From positions 1,054,001-1,118,000 of the forward strand of contig NZ_CP084090.1 in the NCBI RefSeq assembly GCF_020217425.1: a DNA stretch of 64,000 nucleotides. The letters run 5' to 3'. The position numbers and the translations under genes are program-made. Position 1 is the first letter of the stretch. Each line of letters begins with the position of its first letter. The stretch comes from Halomicrobium urmianum. Its GTDB lineage: Archaea > Halobacteriota > Halobacteria > Halobacteriales > Haloarculaceae. The notes below the pieces were generated by a model that was not told where the DNA came from, searched no databases, and saw only the letters and a program-made list of their open reading frames with translations. Shown in pieces: positions 37,439 to 64,000 of this stretch.

Positions 37439-37486
37439 CTGACCGGTCACCGAACCGGTTTTCCGAAACGACGACACTCACCACCA

Positions 37487-42386: not shown

Positions 42387-42488
42387 ATGACTACACTGAC
42401 TGGAATAGGGCAACTAACTAACGCCAGATCGGCCAAACAATGGCGACAGCACTCGTCCAAGAGTGTTGCAGATTACGTGTACCCATGA
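42387..42488 (+). CDS. Leader ORF, 33 residues, coupled to next gene
   Basis: The frame begins MTTLTGIGQLTNARSAKQWR and ends DYVYP. Its TGA overlaps the ATG of the 42485 gene by the ATGA pattern. With the TATA box in place, a leaderless message would be entered by ribosomes here and passed to the main gene by termination-reinitiation. No Shine-Dalgarno sequence precedes 42485. The peptide resembles nothing I know; it may act only through its translation. Confidence 0.5.
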   Translation: MTTLTGIGQLTNARSAKQWRQHSSKSVADYVYP

Positions 42489-44884
42489 AGGAACTAGATC
42501 AGATGCATTCGGACGAGAAGAGCAGCAGGAGTCGCTCGATGAACCGACGAAACGTGCTCAAAGGGCTCGGAGCCGTCGGACTCGGTAGTTCGATTTCGGG
42601 ACTCGCACAGGCACAAGGACGGGGCAACAGTAAAGACCGCTCTCAAGGGGGTCAAGCCGAGATCCCGATTTCCACGCAGTTCTGGACGTACAACAACTCC
42701 GACCTGTCGGTCGCAGAGCTCATCTACGAATCTGCCAACGCCGGCTACGACGCCGTCGAACCGTTTTACATCGACGACGAGGAAGCGGTCGCCACGGCGC
42801 TCGAGGAGACTGGGCTGGAACTCTCTAGCGCACACGTGGGCATCGAGCAACTCGAAGACGACTTCGAGGAAACGATCGAGACGTACTCCCAGTTCGGTGC
42901 CGACGCGCTCATTCACGCCTACAAAGGCGGTGGCACCTGGGAGAGCAAGGAGTCGATTATCGAGTGGGCAGAACGGGTCAACGAGGTCGCTGACAGAGTC
43001 GCCGAAGCGGGGATGGAGTTCGGCTACCACAACCACGATCAGGAGTTCCAGACGATCGACGGGCGCTACGGGTTCGACATCTTCGCCGAACACGTCAACG
43101 ACAACGTCCACCTGCAGCTGGACGTCGGCTGGGCGCTCGTCGGCGGTGCCGATCCGGTCGCCGTCCTCAATAGACACAGCGACGAGATCCGGTCGCTGCA
43201 CATGAAGGATATGACCGAGGATGGGGGCTTCACCGAGATCGGCGAGGGAGACGTCGACATGAAAGCCCTCGCGAACGTCGCCCGAGGCGCTGCAGACGTC
43301 GACTACCTCATCTACGAATACGACGGCGCACCCGAACCGGTCGAGTCCCTCTACACCGGCGCCGAATTCCTCGAACGCTGGAACGGTCCTCGCCATCGGG
43401 CCGGCGTGCCCTCTGAGGAGTGGCCGTCACGTGTCGTACCTGGTGATGGGGGACTTAGCGGAGACCCACCGTCCGATGCGACGATCCTCTGGGACGGCGA
43501 CAGTGCCACTCTCGACGACTGGCAACACCTCGATGGTCGAGACGCCGAGTGGACTGAACACGGCGCCGAAGACGACGATGACGGCTACGATTACTTCAGG
43601 ACCAATCTCGGAACCGGGGGCATCCAGCCCAAGGAGGCGCTGGGCGACGTGCACCTCCATCTCGAGTGGCAGATCCCCGAGGAATTCGACGGGCTCCAGA
43701 ACGGTCAGGGACCAGGAAACAGCGGCCTGTTCATGATGGAGTCCTACGAGTTCCAGATCCTCCAGAGCCACGACAACCCGACCTACCCGAGCGGGTACGC
43801 CGGGTCGTTTTACCTAGCGACCGACGAGGACGACGACGGCGACGGGGGCAGTGCACCGCTCGTTCTCCCGATTCGACCGCCCGGCGAATGGCAAGAGTTC
43901 GACATAATCTGGCGAGGTCCACGCTCTGAAGACGGCGAACTGGTTCGGTATCCACAGGTGACGCTGTTCTTTAACGGCGTGGCAGTTCAGGTCCACAACG
44001 ATATTCCCGGTCCCAACTGGTGGAAGGACATTCGGGACTTCTTCGCGGACAACGGACATCCTCAGGGCGACGACGGCGAGCTCCTCGAGGAACTCCCCTT
44101 CTACCTGCAGGACCACGGTCGTGACCAAGACGTGGTTCGCTTCCGGAACATCTGGTATCGCGATCTCCCCGAGGATCCCGTCGAGATCGAGGATCCCGAT
44201 GCAATGCCGGAATACGATACCGCCGGTGGCGACTGGGAGGACCCTGAGCTGATTTCCCCTGGCGGGACAGGCACGACTGGTGAAGCGCCGGGCGATGCCG
44301 AGATGCTGATTGACGGTGGTGATCTTAGCGCATGGGAGAGCACTGATGGTGGCGAGCCAGGATGGAACGAGAAGGGTGACTACGTCGAAGTCGAACCGGG
44401 AACCGGTGATATCCAGACCACGAGGTCGTTCGGCGACGCACAGTTCCACATTGAATACCGTGTTCCGACGGACGTCGAAGGAGACGGCCTCGATCGAGGG
44501 GCCAGCGGTGCCCTAGTGCTGGGCGAGTACGAAATACAGATCCTCGACACCTTCATGAACGGCGTCGACGCCGACGCGTGGGCCGGTGCGTACGTCGATC
44601 AGGCCGCACCACATCACGACGCAGTCCGGAGACCTGGTGAATGGCAGCAGCTCGATATCGTCTGGCAGGGGCCACGGTTCGAAGACGGCGAGCTCGTCCA
44701 GGAAGCACAGGCCACTGTCCTGCTTAACGGCGTTACTGTGCAGACGCGACTCTTCGTCGAAGGGCCGAACGCTGACGGCTCGCTCGGTGAGTACGAGGAC
44801 CACGCGTCGGAACTACCGCTCCGGCTCCAGGAAGACGGTAGTCGAGTCCAGTTCCGAAACACCTGGTCGCGATCGCTTGACTGA
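42485..44884 (+). CDS. Tat-exported sugar isomerase/epimerase barrel fused to two DUF1080 domains
   Basis: This 799-residue protein has a Tat motif MNRRNVLKGLGAVGLG near residue 19. A xylose-isomerase-like TIM barrel covers about 57-308 (NAGYDAVEPFYIDDEE; FGYHNHDQEF; LQLDVGWALVGGADP; HMKDM, which carry the metal-binding Glu/Asp/His positions). Two DUF1080 (3-keto-disaccharide hydrolase) domains follow at about 329-562 and 605-799. The first shares NSGLFMM-SYEFQILQSHDN with the large protein at 54788. The family pairing suggests extracellular isomerisation and cleavage of a keto-glycoside. ATGs at 42503 and 42539 are alternative starts. Confidence 0.88.
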   Translation: MKELDQMHSDEKSSRSRSMNRRNVLKGLGAVGLGSSISGLAQAQGRGNSKDRSQGGQAEIPISTQFWTYNNSDLSVAELIYESANAGYDAVEPFYIDDEEAVATALEETGLELSSAHVGIEQLEDDFEETIETYSQFGADALIHAYKGGGTWESKESIIEWAERVNEVADRVAEAGMEFGYHNHDQEFQTIDGRYGFDIFAEHVNDNVHLQLDVGWALVGGADPVAVLNRHSDEIRSLHMKDMTEDGGFTEIGEGDVDMKALANVARGAADVDYLIYEYDGAPEPVESLYTGAEFLERWNGPRHRAGVPSEEWPSRVVPGDGGLSGDPPSDATILWDGDSATLDDWQHLDGRDAEWTEHGAEDDDDGYDYFRTNLGTGGIQPKEALGDVHLHLEWQIPEEFDGLQNGQGPGNSGLFMMESYEFQILQSHDNPTYPSGYAGSFYLATDEDDDGDGGSAPLVLPIRPPGEWQEFDIIWRGPRSEDGELVRYPQVTLFFNGVAVQVHNDIPGPNWWKDIRDFFADNGHPQGDDGELLEELPFYLQDHGRDQDVVRFRNIWYRDLPEDPVEIEDPDAMPEYDTAGGDWEDPELISPGGTGTTGEAPGDAEMLIDGGDLSAWESTDGGEPGWNEKGDYVEVEPGTGDIQTTRSFGDAQFHIEYRVPTDVEGDGLDRGASGALVLGEYEIQILDTFMNGVDADAWAGAYVDQAAPHHDAVRRPGEWQQLDIVWQGPRFEDGELVQEAQATVLLNGVTVQTRLFVEGPNADGSLGEYEDHASELPLRLQEDGSRVQFRNTWSRSLD

Positions 44885-46736: not shown

Positions 46737-47677
46737 CCTCGGTTCCGGGCCCACCTCGATTCTTGGGCGGTTTTCTCGAACGAAGGGAACGAATCGATCC
46801 TCGGAGCCGGCGGTGGCTCAGTCCGGATCGAACCCGGGCCGGCGACCGGGCGTCCCCTCGATGAATCACGGCAGTGCCGTCACCCGAGTCCCTTCGAGGT
46901 TCGGTTACGGGATCTAGCAGCGAGCTGTTTCCGTGGCGAGTGCACGGGAACCGCGCTAGAACCTACCGGACAGACTCTGCGCCGGACTACGGGCTCACCA
47001 CTCTAGCAGAACGTCCCTCTTCCGGGATGCCGTCTAGACCGCGCTAGATCGGACGGTGATCCCGCGGCTCCCTCCCGATTGTTCCGCCATCCGGGACTGC
47101 ATAACGAAAGTACCCTTGTTATTCTTCCTGGCTGTTCCCGATTGCCTGACAATCTATTACGGTGTTTCTCGGTACTATCTGGTTACTACGGACGGACGAG
47201 TTCCGGTGCCGAGTCCCTGTACTGGCCTCGACCCGCGCTGCCGTCGTAGAGGGGAGGCCGGATCGGACGCGACGGCGGTCGTCATTTCTCGTCCTCATCA
47301 ACCGAGTAACTCGACGGAGTCTCCGAACCAGATGTGACCGCCAAAATTAAATACAATCTGTCTGATGACTATGTCGCACGGTCGCGTTGCGGTAGCCACG
47401 CGGAGACGTGCGACGATCGCCCCTTGCGGGACGGAGACAGTCACATGTGCGATTTCACGCCCGACGGGTTGCCCGATACGGACAGGCGCGGTGTACCACG
47501 CGTCTGGGCCCGACCGGAGAGGGATACGGCACGGCCGTCACCAGCGAGAGTGCCGCCGACGTCGACGAAGCGGTCGGGCCCGTACCGGCAACGGGACGGG
47601 CGGGCGAGACGGGAGCCAGCGGCCTCGGCGGTGACGTATCGGACGCCAACCGGATACGAGATCGAAGAACTGCGACA
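46737..47677. other. Long upstream region of the first large surface enzyme
   Basis: No confident gene in about 940 bases. A TATA-like AAATTAAATAC lies at about 47344-47354. A 115-codon frame from 47334 ends in TGA overlapping the next gene's ATG (47678-47681) and might be a coupled leader, but its Arg-rich composition makes this doubtful. The next gene's frame is also open back to 47408 with an Arg-rich extension, which I do not include. Confidence 0.45.
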
Positions 47678-50600
47678 ATGACAGATGACAGTTCCACGAA
47701 CGACGCGGAGGACGTATCGACGTTGACCACTGACCGCCGGCGGTTCCTGCAGGCAGCCACCGTCGCTGGCACCGGCCTCACCGGCATCGGCGGTTTCGCC
47801 AGCGCGCAGCAGAGTAGCGACACCCACATCGAACTGGAGGCCGTGACGGTCGAGACCAGCGGCGGTCGCGGCCGCTCGGAGTTCGCCTGGGAGGACGGCG
47901 AGGGCGGCGTCGTACGCGGCCCGCCCGAGGAGGTCTGTTCGATAGCCGGCGGCACCCACCTCTGGGTAGGCGTCTCGCCCGACTCCATCGCCGAACTGAC
48001 CAACCCCACGCTGGAACTCACGGCCGGCGAGACCTACACGGTCGAGTGGACCAACACCGACGGCGAGGAGCACAACTTCGTCATCGCCGACGCCGACGGT
48101 ACCGAACTCGTCGCGTCCGAGACCGTCTCTGAGGAAGGCGCCACCCAGTCCGTCGAGTTCGAGGCCACGGAAGAGATGGCCACCTACTACTGCGACCCAC
48201 ATTCGACCTCCCAGCGGGGAGACGTCCGGATCGCCGACGGCACGCCCTTCGAACTGAGCGGGCTGGACCCCTCGGAGGCGACCGTCACGATGGGTGACGT
48301 GGCGAGCTTCGACGTCACCGTCACGCACACCGGCGACGGCAGCGAGACGGGGACGGTGACGCTGTCGGTGGACTCCCAGCAGATGGACTCGCGGGAGGTG
48401 ACGCTGGACGCCGGCGCGTCCACGACGGTCTCCCTGGACGTGGACACGACGGGCCTGACCGCGGGCGATCGCACGGTCGTCGTCGCGAGCGGCGGCTCGC
48501 GGGTCAGCGGAACGCTCACCGTCGAAGCGGACGACGAGTGGATCCAGCTGTTCAACGGCGAGGACCTGGACGACTGGACGCCGAAGTTCTCCGGTCGCGA
48601 GCCCGGCGTGAACTACAACGACGTCTTCACCGTCGAAGACGGCGTCCTCAGGGTCGGTTACGGCGACTACGGCGACGAGTGGGACAGCGTGTTCGGCCAC
48701 CTGTTCTACGACGGCGAGTTCTCCCACTACGCGCTCCGGGCGGAGTACCGGTTCGTCGGGGAGCAGGTCTCCGGCGCCCCGGACTGGGCCTTCCGGAACA
48801 ACGGGCTGATGCTCCACGGCCAGACCCCGGAGGAGATGGACGTCGATCAGGACTACCCCGACTCCATCGAGGTCCAGCTCCTGGGGCAGTCGGCCGACAG
48901 CGACGGGACCCGGACGACCGCCAACGTCTGTACGCCGGGAACCAACATCGTCATGGACGGGTCGCTACACGAGCAGCACTGCACCAGTTCCAGTTCCGAC
49001 ACCTATCGAGGCGACCAGTGGGTGACCGTCACGGTCATCGTTCGTGGAAACGAGCTGATACGTCACGTCGTCGAGGACGACGGCGTCGTCATGCAGTACA
49101 CGGAGCCCCAGCTGGACGACGGTACGCCGCTCGACTCGGGGACGATCTCCATCCAGTCGGAGAGCCACCCGACGGAGTTCCGCACGATCGAACTGAAGCC
49201 GATCGATCCCGAGGCGCCGATCGAAGCGGTCGAGCCGTCGAGCCCGCTCTGGAGCAGCTACACCAAGGACGAGCTGGCCTCGGGCCTCGAACAGCCGATG
49301 GCGATCGAGGTCACGCCGGACCACCGGGTCTTCTTCACCACGCGCGGGCCGCCGGTCGACGGGGACGGAAACACCGCGACGACGGAGGTCGGCGTGGTCG
49401 ATCCGGAAACCGAGGAGGTCACGACGGCGCTCGAACTCGACGTCCACACCTCCGGCGAGGACGGGTTGCAGGGGCTCACCCTGGACCCGGACTTCGAGGA
49501 GAACGGCTGGATCTACCTGTACTACTCCGCGCCCCACGAGATCATCGACGAGGAACCGCACAAGCGGCTGTCGCGCTTCACGGTCAACGGCGACACGATC
49601 GATCCGGAGTCCGAAGTCGAGATCCTCAGGGTCCCGGCGGCGGACAACCCCTGCTGTCACGTCGGCGGTGACCTCGAGTTCGGGCCGGAGGGGAACCTCT
49701 TCCTCTCGACCGGCGACGACACGAGCCCGTTCCAGTCCAGCGGCTACACTCCGATCGACGAACGCGACGGTCGCGAGCTGTTCGACGCGCAGCGGTCGTC
49801 CGCGAACACGAACGACCTCCGCGGGAGCATCCTCCGGATCAGTCCGAACGACGACGGCACCTACGACATCCCGGACGGCAACATGTTCACCGGTCCGGAG
49901 TACGCCGACGCGCGCGAGAACGACCTCGTACGGGAGGAAATCTACGTGATGGGGTGTCGCAACCCCTTCCGCATGGACGTCGACGAGGACGGCGTCCTGT
50001 ACTGGGCCAATTACGGTGCCGACGCGGGCGCCTGGGACGCCGAACGCGGACCGCCGGGCATCGTCGAGTTCAACCGCGCAGAGGAACCCGGCTTCTACGG
50101 GTGGCCGTACGTCGTCGGGCCCGACATCCCCTTCGTCGACGGCGAGTTCGCCACAGAGGACGGCGAGCGGGTGTTCAACTCCTCCGGCGAGCCGTTCGAT
50201 CCGGAGAACCTGCGGAACACCTCGCCGAACAACACCGGACTCACTGAGTTACCGGAGCCCGAGCAGCCGGTGATCTGGTACCCCTACAGCTGGGACGGCC
50301 TGCTGAACTCGCCGCCCGACTACGCTACGGAGTACCTGCCCGACGAGCCGCCGTTCCCGGACTTCGAGGGCGGCGCTCCGATGGGCGGGCCGGTCTACGA
50401 TTTCCGGGACTCCTACGACCAGAACGCCCTGCCGGAGCGCTTTTTCGACGGGAAGCAACTCATCGGCGAATGGGGTCAGCAGTGGCTCAGGTACGTGTCC
50501 TACGACGACGACGGGGCGGTCGAGGAGATCGACGAGTTCATGCCGGACGAGTCGTTCCTCTCGCCGATGGACCTGACCGTCGGTCCGGACGGGACGCTGT

Positions 50601-53077
50601 ACCTCCTGGAGTGGGGCGACGGGTACGCCGGCAGTCCCATGTCCTCGCAGTCGGGCATCTACCGGATCGAGCGGGCGGTGAACGTCGACTTCCCCGACGT
50701 CGAGAACGGCGAAGTCGCCAGCGGGCCGGGGACGACGACAACGGTGAACGGGACGGTCACGAACCCGTTCGACTCCGCTATCCAGAACGGCGAGGTCTCG
50801 CTCGGCGCGCCTGACGACGCCCCGATCGAGGTGACGCCGGTCGAGGGCCAGACCTTCGACTCGCTCGGGCCGTACCAGTCCCAGTCGATGTTCTGGGAGG
50901 TGACGATTCCCGATGGGAGCAGCGGCAGCCACGACCTGACGGCGACCGTCAGCTACACCGGCACCGAGGGCGAGCACAGTCGCAGCGAGCCGGCGTTCAC
51001 GGTCACGGTCGGACAGCGTCTGAACCTCGCCGGCGACTGGCAGTTCCAGACCGGCGACGACGCCGGCTGGAGCGACCCGTCGTTCGACGACAGCGGCTGG
51101 GAGACCGTCGAGCTTCCGGATCACTGGGAGGACCATTCGGACTACACGGACGCCGAGGCGTTCGGGTGGTATCGGAAGACCGTGACCGTCCCCGAGAGCT
51201 GGGAGGACCGGGACGTCACGCTACAGGCAGGCATGATCGACGACGTGGACGAGACGTTCGTCAACGGCACCAGAGTCGGTCAGACGGGCACGTTCCCCGA
51301 GAACGGCTACGATACCGCCTGGGACGCGCCACGCGAGTACACGGTCAGCGGCGAGACCATCGACTACGGCGGCGAGAACGTCGTCGCTATCCGCGTCTAC
51401 GACGGCGACGGCCCCGGCGGACTCTACGAGGGACCGCTCCTGATGAGCCCGTCGTCCGACAGCGGCGGCGGCGACCAGACGCTCCAGGACGGCCTGGAGG
51501 CGCACCTCCCGCTGGACGGCGACACGCCGACGAACGAGGTCACCGGCGCTGACGCCACTCTCCAGGGCGGCGTAGCGACCGGCCAGTCGGGCGTCGTCGG
51601 GAACGCCTACGAGGTCCACACCAACCAGGAGACCGGCGTCGAGATCCCGCCCGCTGAGGCCGAGCCCGGTGACGCGGTCGTGACCGAGTCCCTCCCGCTC
51701 AACGGCGAGGCCGCGACCGCCGCCGCGTGGATCAACGTCACCGACCACGAGCAGTGGGCCCGCGCGCCGTTCCAGGTCGGCGGCTCGCCCGCCGCCCTCA
51801 CGAACGGCTGGGACCTCGAGTTCTCCTCGAACGACGACGCGATCATCCCGCAGGTCTGGCAGGACGGGTCCCCGAGTCGGGGTAGCGGTCCCGATCCGAT
51901 CCCGATCGATCGTGAGACGTGGTACTTCGTCGTGATGGTCGTCGACGGCGGGGACTCTCGGCTCCACGTGTTCGACCAGAACGGCGAAATCGACGCCTCG
52001 CCCCGGTCCTGGTCCGGTTCGCGCACCCAGACCGACGAGGCGCCCCTCGTGCTCGGGACGGGCCAGGGCTACGACATGGCCGGCCGGATCGACGACGTCT
52101 GGGCGTACTCCCGTGCGCTCTCCCCGGACGAGGTCAGCGATCTCCATTCGCTGTCTCTCGAGGGCGACAGCGACGGAGGAAACGCGCTCGACGACACGCC
52201 CGCCGACTGGTCGACCACGACGTACGGCGGATCGGCCGAACACGCCTACGTCGCCGGCGAGGCCGCCGGCGGTGACCGGAGCGTCAACATCGCCTCGTCG
52301 AGCGGTGCCGACGCGTCCTGGGTCCAGACCGTCAGTCTCGAGCCGAACACCGAGTACACCGTCCGCGCGCAGGTCAAGACCGAGGACGTCCAGCCCGTCG
52401 ACGGCACCGGACAAGCGGACGTCTCGGGGGCCCCGTTCGGCGCGACGATCAGCGTCGGGACCATCGCGAACGCGAACTACCCGGACGTCTCCGGTCCGAT
52501 CCCGGAGCCGCTGACGGGGACCAACGACTGGACCACGCTCGAGACCACGTTCGACAGCGGCGACTACGACGGCGTCGACTACGGGGCGGTCGAGGTACTC
52601 GCGCTGTTCGGCGGCTACGGCCAGGCGACCGGCACCGCGTGGTACGACGACTTCGAGCTCGTCGGCCCCGACGGGAACGACCTGCTCTCGAACGCCGGCT
52701 TCGAGACCGGTAGCACAGCCGCCATCGATCCGTCGACGACGATCCAGCTCGGCGGACAGGTCAGCGGCTGGACGGGGCAGGGCCCCGCGAGCATCGAAGG
52801 GACCTCGAATCCCACGCTCACGCTACAGGCCGGCGAGACCTACACGGTCGAGTGGGTGAACCTCGACGGGATCGGTCACAACTTCGAGGTCCTCGATCAC
52901 GACCAGCCGGACTACTCCGGCCACGTCGTCGACGGCGTCTCAACGGGCACCATGTCCACCGAGGGCGAAACGCAGACCGTCGAGTTCACGGCCACCGAGG
53001 AAATGGTTCGATACCAGTGCCGCCCACACCGCACAGGCATGCACGGCGATATCGAGGTGGTCGACAGCGGACAGTAA
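47678..53077 (+). CDS. Giant Tat-exported enzyme A: cupredoxin, DUF1080, sugar dehydrogenase propeller, LamG-like, cupredoxin
   Basis: 1,799 residues. In order: Tat signal (DRRRFLQAATVAG, about 18-32); cupredoxin 1 (about 48-185; EEHNFVI and YYCDPHSTSQ, with Gln at the axial position); CARDB-like (about 190-285); DUF1080 (about 286-510; WIQLFNGEDLDDW); GSDH glucose/sorbosone dehydrogenase beta-propeller (about 520-1000; NPCCHVGGDLEFGPEGNLFL); CARDB-like; beta-galactosidase-type sandwich (about 1113-1260); LamG/concanavalin-like (about 1270-1497); carbohydrate-binding-like; C-terminal cupredoxin (about 1690-1799; GHNFEVL, YQCRPHRTGMHG, a full His/Cys/His/Met blue copper site). It probably oxidises and cleaves surface glycosides. 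Confidence 0.88.
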   Translation: MTDDSSTNDAEDVSTLTTDRRRFLQAATVAGTGLTGIGGFASAQQSSDTHIELEAVTVETSGGRGRSEFAWEDGEGGVVRGPPEEVCSIAGGTHLWVGVSPDSIAELTNPTLELTAGETYTVEWTNTDGEEHNFVIADADGTELVASETVSEEGATQSVEFEATEEMATYYCDPHSTSQRGDVRIADGTPFELSGLDPSEATVTMGDVASFDVTVTHTGDGSETGTVTLSVDSQQMDSREVTLDAGASTTVSLDVDTTGLTAGDRTVVVASGGSRVSGTLTVEADDEWIQLFNGEDLDDWTPKFSGREPGVNYNDVFTVEDGVLRVGYGDYGDEWDSVFGHLFYDGEFSHYALRAEYRFVGEQVSGAPDWAFRNNGLMLHGQTPEEMDVDQDYPDSIEVQLLGQSADSDGTRTTANVCTPGTNIVMDGSLHEQHCTSSSSDTYRGDQWVTVTVIVRGNELIRHVVEDDGVVMQYTEPQLDDGTPLDSGTISIQSESHPTEFRTIELKPIDPEAPIEAVEPSSPLWSSYTKDELASGLEQPMAIEVTPDHRVFFTTRGPPVDGDGNTATTEVGVVDPETEEVTTALELDVHTSGEDGLQGLTLDPDFEENGWIYLYYSAPHEIIDEEPHKRLSRFTVNGDTIDPESEVEILRVPAADNPCCHVGGDLEFGPEGNLFLSTGDDTSPFQSSGYTPIDERDGRELFDAQRSSANTNDLRGSILRISPNDDGTYDIPDGNMFTGPEYADARENDLVREEIYVMGCRNPFRMDVDEDGVLYWANYGADAGAWDAERGPPGIVEFNRAEEPGFYGWPYVVGPDIPFVDGEFATEDGERVFNSSGEPFDPENLRNTSPNNTGLTELPEPEQPVIWYPYSWDGLLNSPPDYATEYLPDEPPFPDFEGGAPMGGPVYDFRDSYDQNALPERFFDGKQLIGEWGQQWLRYVSYDDDGAVEEIDEFMPDESFLSPMDLTVGPDGTLYLLEWGDGYAGSPMSSQSGIYRIERAVNVDFPDVENGEVASGPGTTTTVNGTVTNPFDSAIQNGEVSLGAPDDAPIEVTPVEGQTFDSLGPYQSQSMFWEVTIPDGSSGSHDLTATVSYTGTEGEHSRSEPAFTVTVGQRLNLAGDWQFQTGDDAGWSDPSFDDSGWETVELPDHWEDHSDYTDAEAFGWYRKTVTVPESWEDRDVTLQAGMIDDVDETFVNGTRVGQTGTFPENGYDTAWDAPREYTVSGETIDYGGENVVAIRVYDGDGPGGLYEGPLLMSPSSDSGGGDQTLQDGLEAHLPLDGDTPTNEVTGADATLQGGVATGQSGVVGNAYEVHTNQETGVEIPPAEAEPGDAVVTESLPLNGEAATAAAWINVTDHEQWARAPFQVGGSPAALTNGWDLEFSSNDDAIIPQVWQDGSPSRGSGPDPIPIDRETWYFVVMVVDGGDSRLHVFDQNGEIDASPRSWSGSRTQTDEAPLVLGTGQGYDMAGRIDDVWAYSRALSPDEVSDLHSLSLEGDSDGGNALDDTPADWSTTTYGGSAEHAYVAGEAAGGDRSVNIASSSGADASWVQTVSLEPNTEYTVRAQVKTEDVQPVDGTGQADVSGAPFGATISVGTIANANYPDVSGPIPEPLTGTNDWTTLETTFDSGDYDGVDYGAVEVLALFGGYGQATGTAWYDDFELVGPDGNDLLSNAGFETGSTAAIDPSTTIQLGGQVSGWTGQGPASIEGTSNPTLTLQAGETYTVEWVNLDGIGHNFEVLDHDQPDYSGHVVDGVSTGTMSTEGETQTVEFTATEEMVRYQCRPHRTGMHGDIEVVDSGQ

Positions 53078-53604: not shown

Positions 53605-54693
53605 ATGTCCAAGGACACATCTGACGGTCTGTACGACGCAGACAGACGTAGCGTACTCAAATACCTGGGAACGTCGGGGGTAGTCGCCGCCGGCTCTGGG
53701 CTCGGGCTGACGATGTTCAGCGGCTCGGGCGCGGCCGCGTCGGCGGACATCTCGGCGTCGAACCCGGAAGCGCTGTCGAGCGACGACGGCACGGTCGACG
53801 AGGTGTTCATCAAGCCGTCGCTGTCGGTTTCGTGGGACGGCTTCGACGACGTCGTCGGCAAAGTCCGCATCCTGGTCGAGGCCGCCACCGGCGCGTCCGA
53901 CCTGGACCCGCCCGAAATCGCCGACCTCGACTTCATGCCGGTGTTCCGCGCCACGGGTTACGCCAACGGGACGGACAACGACAGCGAAGAGGAGACGGGC
54001 CCGGGCACCAGCGGCCAGTACCAGATCAACTGGTTCGACGGCGACCGCCGTATCACCCTGTTCGACGAGGACGGCGCGCCCGACTACGAGAACGCCGGGT
54101 ACAACTGCGGCGCGACGATGGAGTCGTACCTCAGCGGCACGCTCATGGGCGACCCCATCGACGGCGCCCAGAACGGCTTCTACGGCGCCGCCGGCAGCAC
54201 CGACGCCTTCGAGGAGACCACCGACGCCGGCACCAACGACACGACGGTATATCTTCGGTACACGATCAGTCTCCACCGGCCGGACATCTCGTTCGTCACC
54301 GAAGACAACTACGCGCTGGACGCCGAGGACGTCCGCCCGTTCTCGCCGCTAGCGATGGTGGACGGTGACGGCGGCCAGTATCCCGACCTCACCGCCGAGG
54401 AGTACGGTACTACGGTCACCAGCGACGACGCCGACGACTACGACGCGCTGTCGGCCGGCGACCTCGTCCATGCCACGGCCGTCCCCTACGGCGTCATGCA
54501 GGACAGCACCGACCACCCGGCGCTGATGACCAGTTACGCCAACTTCACCGTCACCGTCGACAACGAACAGGCCAGCGCCAACGCCTCCGGCGACACCGGC
54601 GCCGGCGCCGAAGTCGACGAGGACGTCGGGACCCTCACCGACGGCGACGCAGGCGGCAACGAGACGAGCGGCAACGAAAGCTCGAACGAGTAA
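53605..54693 (+). CDS. Tat-exported beta-rich protein, unknown family (copy 1)
   Basis: This 362-residue protein has a Tat signal (DADRRSVLKYLGTSG) and a helix rich in Gly/Ala ending SGAAASAD. A beta-rich domain follows (EVFIKPSLSVSWDGFDDVVG; GQYQINWFDGDRRITLFDED; YLRYTISLHRPDISFVTEDN). One Cys (YNCGAT) is visible. The tail is Asn/Gly/Ser/Glu-rich with sequons. It is paralogous to 61211 and always sits just upstream of a short ORF and a giant enzyme gene, so it is probably a partner or structural subunit of that enzyme. Family unknown. Confidence 0.82.
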   Translation: MSKDTSDGLYDADRRSVLKYLGTSGVVAAGSGLGLTMFSGSGAAASADISASNPEALSSDDGTVDEVFIKPSLSVSWDGFDDVVGKVRILVEAATGASDLDPPEIADLDFMPVFRATGYANGTDNDSEEETGPGTSGQYQINWFDGDRRITLFDEDGAPDYENAGYNCGATMESYLSGTLMGDPIDGAQNGFYGAAGSTDAFEETTDAGTNDTTVYLRYTISLHRPDISFVTEDNYALDAEDVRPFSPLAMVDGDGGQYPDLTAEEYGTTVTSDDADDYDALSAGDLVHATAVPYGVMQDSTDHPALMTSYANFTVTVDNEQASANASGDTGAGAEVDEDVGTLTDGDAGGNETSGNESSNE

Positions 54694-54707: not shown

Positions 54708-54791
54708 ATGAACGACCTACGGCGGACGGACACTGACGTACCGGACGAGCGCAACCGACTGATCAGTTCCCGGAACTGGACGACAGCATGA
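54708..54791 (+). CDS. Leader ORF, 27 residues, coupled to giant gene B
   Basis: The frame begins MNDLRRTDTDVPDERNRLIS and ends NWTTA. The TGA overlaps the ATG of the giant gene (ATGA). GAGG lies about 8-10 bases before its own ATG. A related ORF precedes the third giant gene at 62368, sharing the RR-TD-DV pattern. It lies 14 bases after the 53605 gene, so the three ORFs form one transcription unit. Confidence 0.45.
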   Translation: MNDLRRTDTDVPDERNRLISSRNWTTA

Positions 54792-57700
54792 CAACCGAAG
54801 ATATGGACCAACAGGCTGATGCGGACGGTGAATCGGAATCGAACGACGACTGGCGTCGCGTCCTGCAAGCGGGCATCGGCGCGGCCGGGCTGACCGGCCT
54901 GGCCGGCCTCACCAGCGCCCAGCAAGGCAGTCAGAATCTCATCGAACTAGAGGCGGTGACGGTCGAGACCAGCGGCGGTCGCGGCCGCTCGGAGTTCGCC
55001 TGGGAGGACGGCGAGGGCGGCGTCGTACGCGGCCCGCCCGAGGAGGTCTGTTCGATAGCCGGCGGCACCCACCTCTGGGTAGGCGTCTCGCCCGACTCCA
55101 TCGCCGAACTGACCAACCCCACGCTGGAACTCACGGCCGGCGAGACCTACACGGTCGAGTGGACCAACACCGACGGCGAGGAGCACAACTTCGTCATCGC
55201 CGACGCCGACGGTACCGAACTCGTCGCTTCGGACACGATCGCCGAAGAGGGCGCCACCCAGTCCGTCGAGTTCGAGGCCACCGAGGAGATGGCCACCTAC
55301 TACTGCGGGCCTCACTCGGAGTCCCAGAGCGGCTCCATCGAGGTCAGCGTCTCGGCCGGTGAGGTCGAGGTCAGTAACCTCGATCCGAGCAGCGTGACGG
55401 TCTCGCAGGGCGACGCGGTCGACTTCTCGGCGACGGTGTCCAACACCGGCGACAGCAGCCTCACGCAGGTCGTCTCCCTCTCGATCGACGGGAGTCAGGT
55501 CGCCTCCAAGGAAGTGTCACTCGACGCGGGCGCGGAGACGTCCGTTTCGTTCACGGGCGTCGACACGTCTGACCTCTCGGACGGGGACCACACCGTCACT
55601 ATCGCCAGCGGCGGCTCGCAGGTCTCCGGGACGCTCACCGTCGAGGTGGACGACGCCGACGGCGACTGGCACCGCGACCTCGACGTGCCGACGAATCCCG
55701 AGGAGGCGACGAACTGGGACAACTACGAGGTCACCAACGTCTTCTCGACCGGGACGATCTCAAGCGAGTACGACCTCAAGGACGGCGAAGAGGGCGAGTG
55801 GATGCAGATGGACGTCGACGCCCAGGGCCGCATCTGGGTGGTCACCCGCGGGGCGTCCTTCGTCACCGAAGGCGACGGCTACGCCGAGGTCGCCTGGGTC
55901 GACCCCGACTCCGGCGAGCATCAGCTCGCTCTCGAGATCCCGGTCGCGTTCCACGGGGGCCACGTCGCCGATTCCGGCGAGGTGTCCGCCGCCCGCGAAC
56001 TCGGCGGGCAGGGAATCGCCATCGACCCCGACTTCGAGGACAACGGGTACGTGTACGTCATGTACCACCCCTCGAGCGACGACCTGGAACTCGTGGACAA
56101 CCCCTACGACGACAACATCGTCTTCGCGAACATGCGCGTGTCGCGGTTCACGATGCAGGACGACGGAACGCTCGACCCCGACTCCGAGAAGGTCGTCTTT
56201 ACGGTCCCCGAACAGTGGCACACCTGCTGTCACCACGGCGCCTACATCACCTTCGGGGAAGACCGCGAGTTCTACATCTCCACCGGCGACAACTCCAACA
56301 ACGTCGGCAATCCCGACAACCTGGTCAACTGGTTCATGGGCGACGAGCGCCAGGGTATGATCCACGGTCGTCCTGGCCCGGTCGCCGACGCCCAGCGCAC
56401 CTCCGGGAACACGGCCGACAAGCGCGGCAAGGTTCACCGGATCGTCCTCAACGAGGACGGCACCTACGACATCCCCGACGGCAACCTCAAGGAACACTGG
56501 GAAGAGGAGACCGGCGAGTCGTACTCCGACGACGAGTTCCTGCCGTCGATCTACGTGATGGGCCTGCGCAACCCCTTCACCATCACCTACGACGATCACA
56601 GCGGCTACCTCTGGACCGGTCACTACGGCAACGACGGCGGGAGCATCAGCGACCTCGGAATGAGCGGCTTCGGGGACTACCACCTGTGGTGTGAACCGGG
56701 TAACGCCGGCTACCCCTACTACCGGGCGTACTACCCCTACCGGGACTACGACTTCGAGAACGACGAGGTCGGTCAGCCGTTCTGGCCGGACAACCTGCGC
56801 AACGAGTCGGTGAACAACACGGGCATCGAGAACATCCCGAACGTGACGCCGGCGCTGATCTGGCATCCCCAGAGCTTCGACGACTACGAGAACGCCCTCG
56901 ACATCCACCCGTGGCTCGACCAGCCCCGACCCGGCGAAGTCACCTACCCCGAGCTAGATGCCGGTGGATCGGCAGACGTCGGCGTCGTCTACCGCTACGA
57001 CGAGGGGTACAGCGAGCACGCGCTCCCGCCGTACTTCGACGGGAAGCCGTTCTTCATGAACCCGAGCAACGCCGACGTCGTCCGCTACCTGACGTTCAAC
57101 GACGACGGCAGCCTCGACATCAACGAGTTCGGAGCGCGCGACGGCGTCGCCGCGGCCTACGACATGAAGGTCCTGCCGGACGGTCGGCTGGCCATCATGG
57201 GGATGTACTCGGGGATCCACATCGTCGAGTACAACGGCCCGGCGCCCGGTTACCAGCCCCCGCCCGAAGAAGAACAGCCCGACCGCGTCGAGCCCGCCGC
57301 CGACGGTCTCAGCGGCGACCCGCCGGGCGACGCGACCGTCCTCTGGGACGGCGACGACGCCACGCTGGACGGCTGGGAACAGCTGGACGGATCCGAAGCG
57401 CAGTGGAACGAGACCGCCGACTACTTCGAGGTAGATCCGTCTGACCCGGACGTTGAGGGCAATGTCCGGCCGAAGGAGGATCTGGGTGACGTCCACCTCC
57501 ACCTCGAGTGGCGCGTTCCGGAAGAGGTCGCCGGCGAAGCCGAGGGCCAGGGGCCGGGCAACAGTGGCCTGTTCATGATGGAGACCTACGAGTTCCAGAT
57601 CCTCCAGAGCCACGACAACCCAACCTACCCGAGCGGCTACGCTGGATCCTTCTACAAGTACCAGGAGGGCGGCGGCAGCGCGCCGCTCGCGATGCCGATC

Positions 57701-60643
57701 CGCCCGCCGGGCGAGTGGAACTCCTACGATCTGATCTGGCGCCGCCCCCGGTTCGACGACGACGGCAACGTCGTCCGTCTGCCGCAGGCGACGCTGCTGT
57801 TCAACGGCGTCGTCGTCCAGCAGCACCTCAACATCCCGGGTCCCGTCTGGTACGACACGCTGTACCCGTTCGACCACGAGGACTTCGGCCACCCGCGCGA
57901 CGAGAACGGCAACTTCCTGACGGAAGCGCCGTTCCACCTGCAGAACCACGGCAACGACTACGACGTCGTGCAGTACCGCAACGTCTGGTACCGCGACCTG
58001 CCCGAGCGCCCGGTCACCGAGAGCGAGCACCCGGACAACGTTCCGGAGTACTCGACCTCCGGCGGTCCCTACTACCTGCCGAACGGCGACCAGTACCAGC
58101 CGCAGCAGATTAGCCCCGGTGGATCCGGTACCACCGGCACGCCGCCGGGCGACGCCGACGTGTTGCTCGACGACTCGATCACCATCCAGCCCGGCGACGG
58201 CGACTGGGTGAGCGACAGCAAGTACGGCGACGCTCAGGTGCACGTCGAGTACCGCATCCCCGAGGACGTCGAGGGCGAGGGGCCGCTGCGCGGCAACAGC
58301 GGCGTCCTGATGATGGGCAACTACGAGATCCAGATCCTCGACACCTGGGAGAACCCGGTCGAAGCCGACGAGTGGGCCGGCGCCTACACCCACCAGAACG
58401 GGCCGCATCACGACGCGGTCCGCGAACCCGGCGAGTGGCAGCAGCTGGACCTCGTCTGGCAGGCGCCACGGTTCTCGGGCGGCGAGCTCGAGAAGCCGGC
58501 GCAGGTCACGGCGTTCCTCAACGGCGTGGCCGTCCAGACGCGCCTCGTCGTCGACGGACCTAACAAAGGCTTCACCGTCAACCCGTACAGCGAACACGGG
58601 AAGATGCCGCTGCGCCTCCGGGAGGAAGGCAGCGAGATCGACTTCCGCAACGCCTGGATCCGGGAGGAGCAAGCCGAACTCGTCAGCGACGAACCGTCCG
58701 AGCCGGAGCAGCTGTCGGCGCCCATCGGGCTCGACCTCGGCGGCCTCCACACCGACGAGACCGTCACGGTCGACGGCCTCGAGTTCCTGCCGACGCCGTC
58801 TCAGTCCGAGCAGGTCGGCATCGAGGAGAACCGGACGCTCGACGCGGACGAGAAGTACTGGCCCGAGCAGGTTACAGTCGAACCCGAACCGCGTGAGTCG
58901 CCGGGCGCGACTGACTCGGGTCGGCCGCTGAACGAGGAGCAGAATCTCGGAACCAATCCGGACATCGAGGGCACCGAGCACGACTCGATGTACTGGACCG
59001 AGCAGTGGTCGAACGACGAACTCAACTACACGTTCGACATCGAGAACGGCGTCTACGAGGTGACGCTACACTTCGCGGAGGTCTGGTTCGCCGGCGAGGA
59101 CACGCGCGTGTTCAGCGGCTCCGTCAACGGCGAGACTGTCTTCGAGGAGCTCGACCTCTACGCCGACCACGGTCCGGACACCGCCGTGACGTTCTCGCAC
59201 GTCACCGAGGTGACGGACAACGAACTGGTCGTCTCGCTCGAGTCGTCCGTCGAGAACCCGAAGATCAGCGGCATCGAGATCCGGGAAGTGGACAAGGTCG
59301 CCCACTACGACGCCACGACGCTGGAGCTCTCGGACGGCGACGCGGTGTCGTCCTGGTCCGACGCCGGCGGCGTCGGCCCCGATCTGACTCAGAGCGACTC
59401 CGCCGCTCAGCCGACCTTCCAGACGGACGTCGCTAACGGCAACCCGACGGTCCGCTTCGAGGGCGACGGCGACTACATCAACGCCGACGAGGTCGTCACC
59501 GAGGACACCGCGGGCGTCACGATGGCCGCGGCGTTCCGGACGAGCGACCCCACCGTTCCCCGCCAGACGATCATGTACAACGGGAGCGACGGTGAGCTGA
59601 ACGGCTACGGCGCCTACGTCAACAACGAGGCAGGGTCTGGACCTGCGTCCGAAGGCTACGTCAACGGCCTCTACGGCGGCGTGAACTGGTGGTGGTCGGA
59701 CACGACCGTCGGTGCTGACAACTTCCACGTCGTGACCTGGACCGTCCCCGAGGACGAGCCCGATCACCCGGTGCTCCGACTGGACGGCCAGGAGCTTGAC
59801 ACGGAACTGCAGATCGACCCGGCCGAACCCGAGACGCCGACCACCCAGTTCGGCATCGGCTACGACGACGGCGCCGTCGACGAGCGACCGCCGTTCTTCG
59901 CCGGCGACATCGGCGAGGTGCGGGTCTACAACCGCGAGCTGTCGGGCGCCGAGCTGTCACAGCTCGAGAGCGACCTCGGCGAGAAGTGGGGCGCGGACGT
60001 CCAGGCACCGGACCTGTCGGCTGGACTGGCCGGCCACTGGACGTTCGAGTCCGGTAACGTCGACGGCGACACCGTCCTCGACAAGTCCGGCAACGGTCAC
60101 GACGGGACCGTTCAGGGCGGCGTGACGACCGACCTCTCGGCCCCGACCGTGGGTGGCGCCGCGGAGTTCAACGGCAGCGACGGGACCGTCGTCGTCCCCA
60201 ACGCCGATGGGCTCGACCCGGCCGCGTACACGGTCTCGGCCTGGCTCAAGACGGACGCCACCGGTCCGTGGGCAGCGGTCCTCGGAAAGGAGAACTCGAT
60301 GTGGTGTGGCTTCAACAACGACACGGGTCAGCCGCGCTTCGACCCGTACAACGGTGCAGAACAGGGTGACTACTTCAGTTCGGACACCGCTGTGGACGAC
60401 GGCAGCTGGCACCACGTCGTCTATCGTCACGCACCGTCCGAGGACACCTCGCGTATCTACGTCGACGGCCAGCAGGTGGGCTCCATGGACGGGGCCACTG
60501 AATCGCCTGCCGCCGACACCTCGCTCGGAATCGGCTCGAAGTCGGGCTTCAAGGACTGGTTCAGCGGCACGCTCGCAGACGTGCGCCTCTACGACCGTCC
60601 CCTCTCCGAGTCGAAGATCTCCCTGCTCAGCCAGCAGGGTTGA
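54788..60643 (+). CDS. Giant Tat-exported enzyme B: cupredoxin, sugar dehydrogenase propeller, two DUF1080, malectin-like, two LamG-like
   Basis: 1,951 residues. In order: Tat-like start (DDWRRVLQAGIGAAG); cupredoxin (about 52-185; EEHNFVI, YYCGPHSESQ, axial Gln); CARDB-like (about 190-285); GSDH propeller (about 305-817; EGEWMQMDVDAQGRIWVVTR, HTCCHHGAYITFGEDREFYI); DUF1080 (about 840-1075); DUF1080 (about 1105-1295); malectin-like (about 1310-1500; ENGVYEVTLHFAEVWFAGED); concanavalin-like (about 1503-1730); LamG (about 1738-1951; LAGHWTFESGNVDGDTVLDK). It has the same machinery as enzyme A but with the DUF1080 domains after the propeller and no C-terminal cupredoxin. Predicted role: surface glycoside oxidation and cleavage. 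Confidence 0.88.
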   Translation: MTTEDMDQQADADGESESNDDWRRVLQAGIGAAGLTGLAGLTSAQQGSQNLIELEAVTVETSGGRGRSEFAWEDGEGGVVRGPPEEVCSIAGGTHLWVGVSPDSIAELTNPTLELTAGETYTVEWTNTDGEEHNFVIADADGTELVASDTIAEEGATQSVEFEATEEMATYYCGPHSESQSGSIEVSVSAGEVEVSNLDPSSVTVSQGDAVDFSATVSNTGDSSLTQVVSLSIDGSQVASKEVSLDAGAETSVSFTGVDTSDLSDGDHTVTIASGGSQVSGTLTVEVDDADGDWHRDLDVPTNPEEATNWDNYEVTNVFSTGTISSEYDLKDGEEGEWMQMDVDAQGRIWVVTRGASFVTEGDGYAEVAWVDPDSGEHQLALEIPVAFHGGHVADSGEVSAARELGGQGIAIDPDFEDNGYVYVMYHPSSDDLELVDNPYDDNIVFANMRVSRFTMQDDGTLDPDSEKVVFTVPEQWHTCCHHGAYITFGEDREFYISTGDNSNNVGNPDNLVNWFMGDERQGMIHGRPGPVADAQRTSGNTADKRGKVHRIVLNEDGTYDIPDGNLKEHWEEETGESYSDDEFLPSIYVMGLRNPFTITYDDHSGYLWTGHYGNDGGSISDLGMSGFGDYHLWCEPGNAGYPYYRAYYPYRDYDFENDEVGQPFWPDNLRNESVNNTGIENIPNVTPALIWHPQSFDDYENALDIHPWLDQPRPGEVTYPELDAGGSADVGVVYRYDEGYSEHALPPYFDGKPFFMNPSNADVVRYLTFNDDGSLDINEFGARDGVAAAYDMKVLPDGRLAIMGMYSGIHIVEYNGPAPGYQPPPEEEQPDRVEPAADGLSGDPPGDATVLWDGDDATLDGWEQLDGSEAQWNETADYFEVDPSDPDVEGNVRPKEDLGDVHLHLEWRVPEEVAGEAEGQGPGNSGLFMMETYEFQILQSHDNPTYPSGYAGSFYKYQEGGGSAPLAMPIRPPGEWNSYDLIWRRPRFDDDGNVVRLPQATLLFNGVVVQQHLNIPGPVWYDTLYPFDHEDFGHPRDENGNFLTEAPFHLQNHGNDYDVVQYRNVWYRDLPERPVTESEHPDNVPEYSTSGGPYYLPNGDQYQPQQISPGGSGTTGTPPGDADVLLDDSITIQPGDGDWVSDSKYGDAQVHVEYRIPEDVEGEGPLRGNSGVLMMGNYEIQILDTWENPVEADEWAGAYTHQNGPHHDAVREPGEWQQLDLVWQAPRFSGGELEKPAQVTAFLNGVAVQTRLVVDGPNKGFTVNPYSEHGKMPLRLREEGSEIDFRNAWIREEQAELVSDEPSEPEQLSAPIGLDLGGLHTDETVTVDGLEFLPTPSQSEQVGIEENRTLDADEKYWPEQVTVEPEPRESPGATDSGRPLNEEQNLGTNPDIEGTEHDSMYWTEQWSNDELNYTFDIENGVYEVTLHFAEVWFAGEDTRVFSGSVNGETVFEELDLYADHGPDTAVTFSHVTEVTDNELVVSLESSVENPKISGIEIREVDKVAHYDATTLELSDGDAVSSWSDAGGVGPDLTQSDSAAQPTFQTDVANGNPTVRFEGDGDYINADEVVTEDTAGVTMAAAFRTSDPTVPRQTIMYNGSDGELNGYGAYVNNEAGSGPASEGYVNGLYGGVNWWWSDTTVGADNFHVVTWTVPEDEPDHPVLRLDGQELDTELQIDPAEPETPTTQFGIGYDDGAVDERPPFFAGDIGEVRVYNRELSGAELSQLESDLGEKWGADVQAPDLSAGLAGHWTFESGNVDGDTVLDKSGNGHDGTVQGGVTTDLSAPTVGGAAEFNGSDGTVVVPNADGLDPAAYTVSAWLKTDATGPWAAVLGKENSMWCGFNNDTGQPRFDPYNGAEQGDYFSSDTAVDDGSWHHVVYRHAPSEDTSRIYVDGQQVGSMDGATESPAADTSLGIGSKSGFKDWFSGTLADVRLYDRPLSESKISLLSQQG

Positions 60644-62367: not shown

Positions 62368-62457
62368 ATGAGACACCGACGACTGACAGACGCTGACGTA
62401 TCGAACGACGCAACCGACCGATCGATTCCCCGAAGGAGGCGACAGCATGACGACTGA
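62368..62457 (+). CDS. Leader ORF, 29 residues, overlapping giant gene C
   Basis: The frame begins MRHRRLTDADVSNDATDRSI and its stop lies 11 bases inside the next gene. It corresponds to the 27-residue ORF at 54708 (RR-TD-DV pattern kept) but the C-terminal frame differs. Here a strong GGAGG lies 8 bases before the 62447 ATG, so the giant gene can start on its own. Confidence 0.35.
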   Translation: MRHRRLTDADVSNDATDRSIPRRRRQHDD

Positions 62458-64000
62458 AGATACAGATCAAATGTCAAACGCGGACGGCGAATCGGAATCG
62501 AACAGCAACCTGCAGCAGTTCCTGAAAGCGGGCATCGGCGCGGCCGGGCTGACCGGCCTGGCCGGCCTCACCAGCGCCCAGCAAGGCAGTCAGAACCTCA
62601 TCGAACTAGAGGCGGTAACGGTCGAGACCAGCGGCGGTCGCGGCCGCTCGGAGTTCGCCTGGGAGGACGGCGAGGGCGGCGTCGTGCGCGGCCCGCCCGA
62701 GGAGGTCTGTAACATCGTCGGCGGGACCCACGTCTGGGTGGGCGTTTCGCCCGACTCCATCGCTGAGGTCACGAATCCGACGCTGGAGCTGACCGCCGGC
62801 GAGACCTACACGGTCGAGTGGACCAACACCGACGGCGAGGAGCACAACTTCGTCATCGCCGACGCCGACGGCACCGAACTCGTCACCTCTGATACCGTCT
62901 CCGAGGAAGGCGCCACCCAGTCCGTCGAGTTCGAGGCCACGGAAGAGATGGCCACCTACTACTGCGGGCCTCACTCGGAGTCCCAGAGCGGCTCCATCGA
63001 GGTCAGCGTCTCGGCCGGCGAGGTTGAGGTCAGTAACCTCGATCCGAGCAGCGTGACGGTCTCGCAGGGCGACGCGGTCGACTTCTCGGCGACGGTGTCC
63101 AACACCGGCGACAGCAGCCTCACGCAGGTCGTCTCCCTCTCGATCGACGGGAGTCAGGTCGCCTCCAAGGAAGTGTCACTCGACGCGGGCGCGGAGACGT
63201 CCGTTTCGTTCACGGGCGTCGACACGTCTGACCTCTCGGACGGGGACCACACCGTCACTATCGCCAGCGGCGGCTCGCAGGTCTCCGGGACGCTCACCGT
63301 CGAGGTAGACGCGGTAGACAGCGACTGGCATCGCGACCTCGACGTGCCGATCAACGCCGAGGAGGCGACGAACTGGGACAACTACGAGGTCACCAACGTC
63401 TTCTCGACCGGGACGATCTCAAGCGAGTACGACCTCAAGGACGGCGAAGAGGGCGAGTGGATGCAGATGGACGTCGACGCCCAGGGCCGCATCTGGGTGG
63501 TCACCCGCGGGGCGTCCTTCGTCACCGAAGGCGACGGCTACGCCGAGGTCGCCTGGGTCGACCCCGACTCCGGCGAGCATCAGCTCGCTCTCGAGATCCC
63601 GGTCGCGTTCCACGGGGGCCACGTCGCCGATTCCGGCGAGGTGTCCGCCGCCCGCGAACTCGGCGGGCAGGGAATCGCCATCGACCCCGACTTCGAGGAC
63701 AACGGGTACGTGTACGTCATGTACCACCCCTCGAGCGACGACCTGGAACTCGTGGACAACCCCTACGACGACAACATCGTCTTCGCGAACATGCGCGTGT
63801 CGCGGTTCACGATGCAGGACGACGGAACGCTCGACCCCGACTCCGAGAAGGTCGTCTTTACGGTCCCCGAACAGTGGCACACCTGCTGTCACCACGGCGC
63901 CTACATCACCTTCGGGGAAGACCGCGAGTTCTACATCTCCACCGGCGACAACTCCAACAACGTCGGCAATCCGGATAACGAAGTTAATTGGTTCATGGGC
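62447..64000 (+). CDS. Giant enzyme C, N-terminal part (runs off window)
   Basis: 518 codons are visible and the frame is open at the right edge. It mirrors enzyme B: cupredoxin (EEHNFVI; YYCGPHSESQ), CARDB-like, and the start of the GSDH propeller (EGEWMQMDVDAQGRIWVVTR; CCHHGAYITFGEDREFY). From about 62960 the DNA is almost identical to 55300 onward. The leader differs: NSNLQQFLKAGIGAAG replaces DDWRRVLQAGIGAAG, so the twin arginines are lost. Export by Tat is therefore in doubt for this copy. The rest of the gene is not in the window. Confidence 0.85.
   Translation, partial: MTTEDTDQMSNADGESESNSNLQQFLKAGIGAAGLTGLAGLTSAQQGSQNLIELEAVTVETSGGRGRSEFAWEDGEGGVVRGPPEEVCNIVGGTHVWVGVSPDSIAEVTNPTLELTAGETYTVEWTNTDGEEHNFVIADADGTELVTSDTVSEEGATQSVEFEATEEMATYYCGPHSESQSGSIEVSVSAGEVEVSNLDPSSVTVSQGDAVDFSATVSNTGDSSLTQVVSLSIDGSQVASKEVSLDAGAETSVSFTGVDTSDLSDGDHTVTIASGGSQVSGTLTVEVDAVDSDWHRDLDVPINAEEATNWDNYEVTNVFSTGTISSEYDLKDGEEGEWMQMDVDAQGRIWVVTRGASFVTEGDGYAEVAWVDPDSGEHQLALEIPVAFHGGHVADSGEVSAARELGGQGIAIDPDFEDNGYVYVMYHPSSDDLELVDNPYDDNIVFANMRVSRFTMQDDGTLDPDSEKVVFTVPEQWHTCCHHGAYITFGEDREFYISTGDNSNNVGNPDNEVNWFMG

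Follow-up and report, generated by a model that had tools for sequence, protein, structure and literature searches.

Tethered redox domains are usually taken for electron relays, and work on nitrite reductases is starting to question that view. A close described system is TsNirK, which we take to be the three-domain copper nitrite reductase of Thermus. In excerpts of its description, TsNirK carries Gln and Met type-1 copper sites on one chain, and electron transfer from T1CuC to T1CuN is proposed (PMC6400189). The three-domain nitrite reductase of Hyphomicrobium denitrificans (2dv6, 6tfd, 6tfo) has a tethered N-terminal cupredoxin that was the best fold match for the domains studied here. Excerpts of one report place the tethered copper of the Hyphomicrobium enzyme too far away for effective transfer (PMC7201279), and a passage of the TsNirK paper states that this copper was shown to be incapable of electron shuttling (PMC6400189).

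Protein A differs from these enzymes in combining two predicted copper sites with a dehydrogenase. It is encoded in a 64,000-nucleotide stretch of the Halomicrobium urmianum chromosome (NZ_CP084090.1; C1:1054001-1118000), referred to below as the window. By translation, the protein is a single open frame of 1799 aa with an ATG start at 47678 and an end at 53077, while the mechanical ORF finder begins the same frame upstream, at a GTG at 47408. The domain order in window coordinates is as follows.

47678..53077, + strand: protein A; Tat signal, cupredoxin (Gln), DUF1080, GSDH propeller, NEW3, beta-galactosidase-like jelly roll, LamG, cupredoxin (Met) (translation; Pfam)
47678..47809, + strand: leader with the twin-arginine (Tat) motif TDRRRFLQA, residues 1-44, boundary estimated (sequence, read by eye without a Tat-model score)
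47999..48232, + strand: N-terminal cupredoxin, residues 108-185 (HMM match; AlphaFold; PDB match)
48536..49198, + strand: 3-keto-disaccharide hydrolase domain (DUF1080, PF06439), residues 287-507 (Pfam 1.1e-30)
49250..50671, + strand: GSDH-type propeller (PF07995), residues 525-998 (Pfam 6.6e-27; alignment; sGDH catalytic residues)
50726..50959, + strand: NEW3 / NPCBM_assoc domain (Pfam)
51026..51397, + strand: beta-galactosidase-like jelly roll, non-catalytic (Pfam: BetaGal_ABD2 above the cut-off, Glyco_hydro_2_N just under it)
51671..52138, + strand: Laminin_G_3 (concanavalin-like) domain (Pfam)
52805..53059, + strand: C-terminal cupredoxin, residues 1710-1794 (Pfam; AlphaFold; PDB match)

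Judged by its twin-arginine leader, protein A is exported. No description of such cupredoxin-dehydrogenase fusions was found in the titles and abstract openings of the literature searched.

An earlier note on this DNA had placed a cupredoxin at each end of the chain, and both domains were borne out by HMM matches and by models. In the Pfam scan, PF00127 Copper-bind matched protein A in two stretches (8e-18, best at 1714-1794); compared with this strong C-terminal match, the one at the N-terminus was weak, with a sub-threshold Cupredoxin_1 at residues 111-177. The structure prediction that the note had proposed agrees at the level of fold. The AlphaFold model of the C-terminal domain has a mean pLDDT of 94.7. 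That of the N-domain has block means of 85-97 over model residues 41 to 130, its overall mean of 76.2 being lowered by the start, where the first ~31 residues fall below 50. When compared with the PDB, both models matched the tethered N-terminal domain of the Hyphomicrobium nitrite reductase 2dv6 best, with a Z of 15.8 and an rmsd of 1.6 over 102 residues for the N-domain and a Z of 14.8 and an rmsd of 2.0 over 104 residues for the C-domain. According to these models, both ends of protein A fold as cupredoxins.

The predicted ligands were read from alignments of 68 N-terminal and 46 C-terminal domains.

48071..48073, + strand: His132, predicted copper ligand, N-domain (alignment)
48191..48193, + strand: Cys172, predicted copper ligand, N-domain (alignment)
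48200..48202, + strand: His175, predicted copper ligand, N-domain (alignment)
48212..48214, + strand: Gln179 (CAG), axial Met position, N-domain (alignment; pattern search)
52877..52879, + strand: His1734, predicted copper ligand, C-domain (alignment)
53018..53020, + strand: Cys1781, predicted copper ligand, C-domain (alignment)
53027..53029, + strand: His1784, predicted copper ligand, C-domain (alignment)
53039..53041, + strand: Met1788, predicted axial copper ligand, C-domain (alignment)

The equatorial His, Cys, His set is present at both ends, and copper is probably bound at both sites. The C-terminal site aligns with the full His/Cys/His/Met set (H1734/C1781/H1784/M1788) in the motif that the earlier note had quoted. 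At the N-terminal site (H132/C172/H175/Q179), Gln179 occupies the Met column of the alignment, again in the motif as quoted (YYCDPHSTSQ), and the ligand loop, YYCDPHSTSQRG, contains no further Met. An axial Met is usual, not universal, in type-1 copper cupredoxins. The note's likening of this site to stellacyanin holds for the axial Gln and fails for the sequence family: the phytocyanin model, presumably plant Cu_bind_like, is absent among the Pfam matches of protein A up to E 0.1, and the N-domain goes to PF00127/PF13473. The N-terminal site may act as a Gln site, yet on this evidence the domain is no stellacyanin.

The claim of a dehydrogenase propeller between the two copper sites was also upheld, by the PF07995 match and by the catalytic residues. 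The propeller aligns with the Acinetobacter soluble glucose dehydrogenase (sGDH) 1c9u, in which we take His144, Arg228-Asn229 and Gln76 to be active-site residues. His144 and Arg228-Asn229 (1c9u numbering) align to a His and an Arg-Asn in protein A, and this His is invariant in the 17 propellers aligned. Gln76 aligns to a Glu, as it does in 3a9g, presumably an archaeal aldose sugar dehydrogenase, which also matches the propeller. The GSDH Pfam model covers only its positions 1-222 of 332 in protein A, leaving the last third of the propeller outside. Since protein A scores 73.6 bits against the full-length, sGDH-like subfamily model TIGR03606 of NCBIfam, far below the cut-off of 434.55, it was assigned only as far as the Pfam family and not to that subfamily. 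By its likeness to sGDH the propeller would use PQQ as cofactor, and a sugar or glycoside is the presumed substrate. A search of the host for PQQ synthesis gave no pqqE over the cut-off and no pqqC match, with control searches likewise below the cut-off.

Whether the Gln lowers the potential of the N-terminal site was considered by analogy with characterized proteins. In the part of the source consulted, rusticyanin has a potential of 667 mV and its Met148Gln mutant one of about 563 mV, and one table lists stellacyanin, with Gln, at 265 mV and the Met site of the A. cycloclastes nitrite reductase at 240 mV (PMC11881046). The first comparison suggests that the N-terminal site is plausibly the lower-potential one of protein A. 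The axial ligand by itself leaves the order of potentials undecided, because stellacyanin does not lie below the A. cycloclastes Met site.

Protein A is one of seven giants, named A-G, that lie in a row between 1101 and 1156 kb of the host chromosome. All seven carry an N-terminal cupredoxin with His-Cys-His-Gln. A C-terminal cupredoxin with Met is present in A, D, E and G; by Pfam and ligand alignment, B, C and F have none. Giants A-F carry GSDH, and G carries a DUF7133/PVC-type propeller that scores above the threshold for the 'PVC-type heme-binding CxxCH protein' model. DUF1080, ThuA, AP_endonuc_2, malectin, PKD and LamG modules are distributed across the giants. Those of the neighbours that fall in the window are given here, together with the copies of a companion protein and the importers beside genes of relatives.

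42440..44884, + strand: exported neighbour; AP_endonuc_2 TIM barrel and two DUF1080 (Pfam)
54788..60643, + strand: protein B, 1951 aa; Gln-type N-terminal cupredoxin (55112-55345), CARDB, GSDH, two DUF1080, malectin, two LamG; C-terminal cupredoxin absent (translation; Pfam; alignment)
62447..64000, + strand: protein C, 1684 aa, running beyond the window; Gln-type N-terminal cupredoxin (62771-63004), GSDH, two DUF1080, malectin, CBM9; C-terminal cupredoxin absent (Pfam; alignment)
Window 53605-54693 and 61211-62353; L009:9576-10664, L010:333-1499 and L010:7538-8623: companion protein copies, host
L044:8978-10075 and L044:16710-17792: companion protein copies, G097
L152:29974-34886 and L154:1-3748: importers beside cupredoxin-GSDH genes of relatives

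The companion is a Tat-exported protein of ~360 aa that precedes each of giants B to F, its copies sharing 89-99% DNA identity, and it also precedes two giants of the genome G097 at 68-70% protein identity. It had no family match in Pfam, NCBIfam or the PDB (a lone PDB match at E 0.18 is not meaningful). As judged by gene order, companion and giant form a repeated two-gene unit. Upstream of the giants, the exported neighbour at 42440-44884 has an AP_endonuc_2 domain that is sugar isomerase/epimerase-like, with a weak IolE match. An ABC importer made up of a BMP/PnrA-like binding protein, an ATPase and a permease also lies near the giants, at 36206-40173 of the window. Cupredoxin-GSDH genes adjoin an annotated BMP-family importer in Natronococcus sp. 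CG52 and an ABC importer in Halocatena salina; the reading frames L152_35214 and L154_3890 each carry a cupredoxin. This proximity hints at uptake of the product.

The N-domain was matched at 1e-10 in 163 of 391 haloarchaeal genomes, while close copies of the giants were found, besides the host, in just one of the 391, G097, which belongs to a different family. The pattern Y-Y-C-x2-H-S-x-S-Q occurred seven times in the host, four times in G097 and in one unrelated sequence elsewhere among these genomes; the reversed pattern, used as a control, gave none in the host. The family-wide search returned no second genome of the host's genus with a comparable match, and G281 and G138 have just an ordinary one-ended relative (ligands read in G281, match alone in G138). 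In the whole-protein scan of named genomes, GSDH relatives were found only in bacteria. G097 encodes a counterpart of protein A with identical architecture (L044_11498). Two more of its giants, at L045 and L046, have an N-terminal Gln and a C-terminal Met site and are frame-broken, one break lying beside an unreadable base; the breaks are either assembly errors or decaying genes.

In a tree of 110 rows and few columns, the Gln domains of the host and G097 form one clade (support 100/99), which by this topology has one origin. The host N-domains share 74-94% DNA identity pairwise, with dS of 0.17-0.83 and dN/dS of 0.09-0.46 over the 21 pairs, and in A, D and the G097 counterpart the dN/dS of the N-domain is similar to those of the propeller and the C-domain. 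By these rates, the host N-domains are related copies under purifying selection. The Gln is constant in all 12 members of the clade, adjacent loop residues vary, and His-Cys-His-Gln is complete in the seven host giants and in four of the five G097 domains. Purifying selection and the fixed Gln suggest that the site has a function in this clade, possibly in a relay. A Gln N-site also occurs in another lineage, in a ThuA-GSDH protein of G436 (L128:5027-7729; YYCGTHSDTQ) without a C-terminal cupredoxin; its domain sits apart from the Gln clade on a long branch and may represent a second origin of Gln. Three readings of the Gln sites were set aside. A chance motif was ruled out by the domain-level matches and pattern counts, seven independent cases in the host by their single clade and DNA identity, and recent gene conversion as sole explanation by the substantial dS.

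Ligand sets were read in a sample of relatives comprising 104 ORFs and plasmid loci, taken best first among the matches listed. In the 17 two-ended dehydrogenases sampled, the C site was intact with Met in every one, while the N site was Met-type in seven (four of G271, three of G436) and Gln-type in five (A, D, E, G and one of G097) and had lost its Cys in the other five (two of G183, with Ser and Asn; two of Haladaptatus pallidirubidus, with the first His gone too; and one of G264, on a contig matching Natronococcus sp. CG52). The frame-split L045 and L046 and the dehydrogenase-less L047 were left out of the 17. Among 60 one-ended N-cupredoxin proteins, 57 of them with a recognised propeller, 55 were Met-type, five Gln-type and none Cys-less; small or multi-cupredoxin proteins of other layout were left out, as was L069_6355, aligned as Gln-type with a Met beside the Gln in its loop. 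Fisher tests that ignore descent gave p 0.0003 both when two-ended proteins were compared with one-ended ones for Cys loss and when N sites were compared with C sites for non-canonical ligand sets. On the tree, the G183 and Haladaptatus losers form one clade beside an intact relative, the G264 loser lies beside another intact relative, and a third place of Cys loss, L047, falls inside the Gln clade. Because only two of these losses are events in the dehydrogenase set, the asymmetry is weakly significant, a directional trend. None of the 17 and 60 proteins sampled was without Cys at every cupredoxin that it had.

L047:13537-15642, from G097, encodes a 701-aa exported protein with a cupredoxin, CBM9, two PKD and a further cupredoxin, without a dehydrogenase; Ser replaces Cys at its N-terminal site. 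On a plasmid of Natronococcus sp. CG52, L152:19335-22502 encodes a GSDH protein with 71% identity to residues 286-997 of protein A. That gene comes after a short transposase-like gene, and its N-terminal cupredoxin was not found.

Judging from the ligand sets, some relatives do without the N-terminal site and others without the C-terminal site, and none of those sampled does without both. The simplest account is that one copper outlet is needed and that a second is free for retuning or loss. We lean slightly towards the view that the sites of this family are redundant outlets rather than an obligate low-to-high-potential relay. The earlier note had proposed a built-in relay, which would run from a quinone propeller to a low-potential Gln copper and on to a high-potential Met copper, or in reverse, before reaching an external acceptor. 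Such a series draws support from A, D and the G097 counterpart, the only three proteins of exactly this architecture, all of which have kept an N-terminal Gln site and a C-terminal Met site, from the purifying selection on the N-domain, and from the solved precedent of TsNirK, whose two sites, according to excerpts of its description, lie about 14 Å apart on one chain (PMC6400189). As a general mechanism the relay was not supported by the comparison. An obligate route from propeller to N to C is doubtful because loss of the N site would isolate C, yet five of the 17 two-ended relatives have lost N and kept C; C as compulsory exit is doubtful because B, C and F, three Gln giants without it, would then be dead ends. 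In sequence the two sites also lie over 1500 residues and several domains apart, and the tethered N-terminal copper of the Hyphomicrobium enzyme is, in the excerpts cited, too distant from its core (PMC7201279; PMC6400189). We regard the serial relay as unlikely for the family, and a relay in protein A itself as possible. It is similarly doubtful that A and its architecture-mates form a Gln-then-Met two-step relay from the quinone propeller while the wider family represents a series in which a tethered site was retuned and then lost.

That related N-domains, including the one of the dehydrogenase-less L047, have lost Cys and His more than once could also mean that the N-domain of protein A is redox-inactive, serving folding, export or binding to carbohydrate or a surface, with Gln as a step to site loss. 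This reading is improbable given the ligand sets kept complete in the Gln clade and the selection on the N-domains, and it would leave B, C and F with no copper outlet. A propeller that is not a PQQ dehydrogenase, being lectin- or lactonase-like and yielding no electrons, with the cupredoxins engaged in, for example, copper storage, would fit the partial coverage by the GSDH model and the replacement of Gln76 by Glu. We consider it very unlikely, as the catalytic His and Arg-Asn equivalents are retained, 3a9g matches and likewise has Glu at that position, and cupredoxins or cytochrome c stand beside the same propeller in many relatives.

We propose, under the reading of redundant outlets, that the exported modular protein A would oxidise a glycoside or sugar at its PQQ-type GSDH propeller and that its DUF1080 domain probably cleaves the oxidised sugar. 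Electrons would leave the propeller via the cupredoxins on the same chain, which would fill the role of the cytochrome c fused in at least one bacterial relative. The older arrangement would be a single copper domain at the N-terminus, because most haloarchaeal relatives sampled have just that one, Met-type. A second Met-type domain would then have been gained at the C-terminus; once there were two outlets, the one at the N-terminus could have changed freely, turning to Gln in the clade of A and losing ligands elsewhere, and in proteins with both, the C-terminal outlet would be the one that stays constant. We infer here both the direction of electron flow and the order of domain gain.

Around related propellers there are natural variants with both sites, with one Gln site, with the N-terminal site only or with the C-terminal site only. 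These haloarchaeal variants make the role of a second tethered copper testable by comparison. The one-ended cupredoxin-GSDH fusions of haloarchaea (~620-900 aa), annotated as 'PQQ-dependent sugar dehydrogenase', have the N-cupredoxin and propeller families in common with protein A and differ in their single copper domain, which is Met-type in most of those sampled; in the four scanned with Pfam, nothing but cupredoxin and GSDH was matched. Bacterial GSDH fusions join the propeller to PKD/CBM or ThuA modules. That of Runella slithyformis (WP_013921610) has GSDH, PKD, CBM6 and a fused cytochrome c (CKACH, domain 616-695) and no cupredoxin, while those of Embleya and Salsipaludibacter have neither carrier. 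The CxxCH motif, present once in the Runella relative, was found in none of 80 propeller-plus-cupredoxin ORFs. In haloarchaea, cupredoxins may take the place that a fused cytochrome c has on this dehydrogenase family in some bacteria, a suggestion drawn from few cases, since two other bacterial relatives have neither.

The matched chains of 1c9u and 3a9g, which have the propeller family and catalytic residues in common with protein A, lack a fused copper domain, and their overall similarity to it is low. The H. denitrificans enzyme is a hexameric nitrite reductase bearing a single tethered domain and, unlike protein A, is not a dehydrogenase. TsNirK resembles protein A in having Gln and Met type-1 sites in one chain with the Met site C-terminal. 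TsNirK is built around a nitrite reductase with type-2 copper and protein A around a GSDH propeller with DUF1080; Pfam gave no nitrite reductase domain in protein A. The Gln site is part of the catalytic core in TsNirK and a separate N-terminal domain in protein A. The pairing of Gln and Met type-1 sites on a single chain is already known from TsNirK; what is new here is that it occurs with a dehydrogenase and that the relatives form a natural series in which sites are lost.
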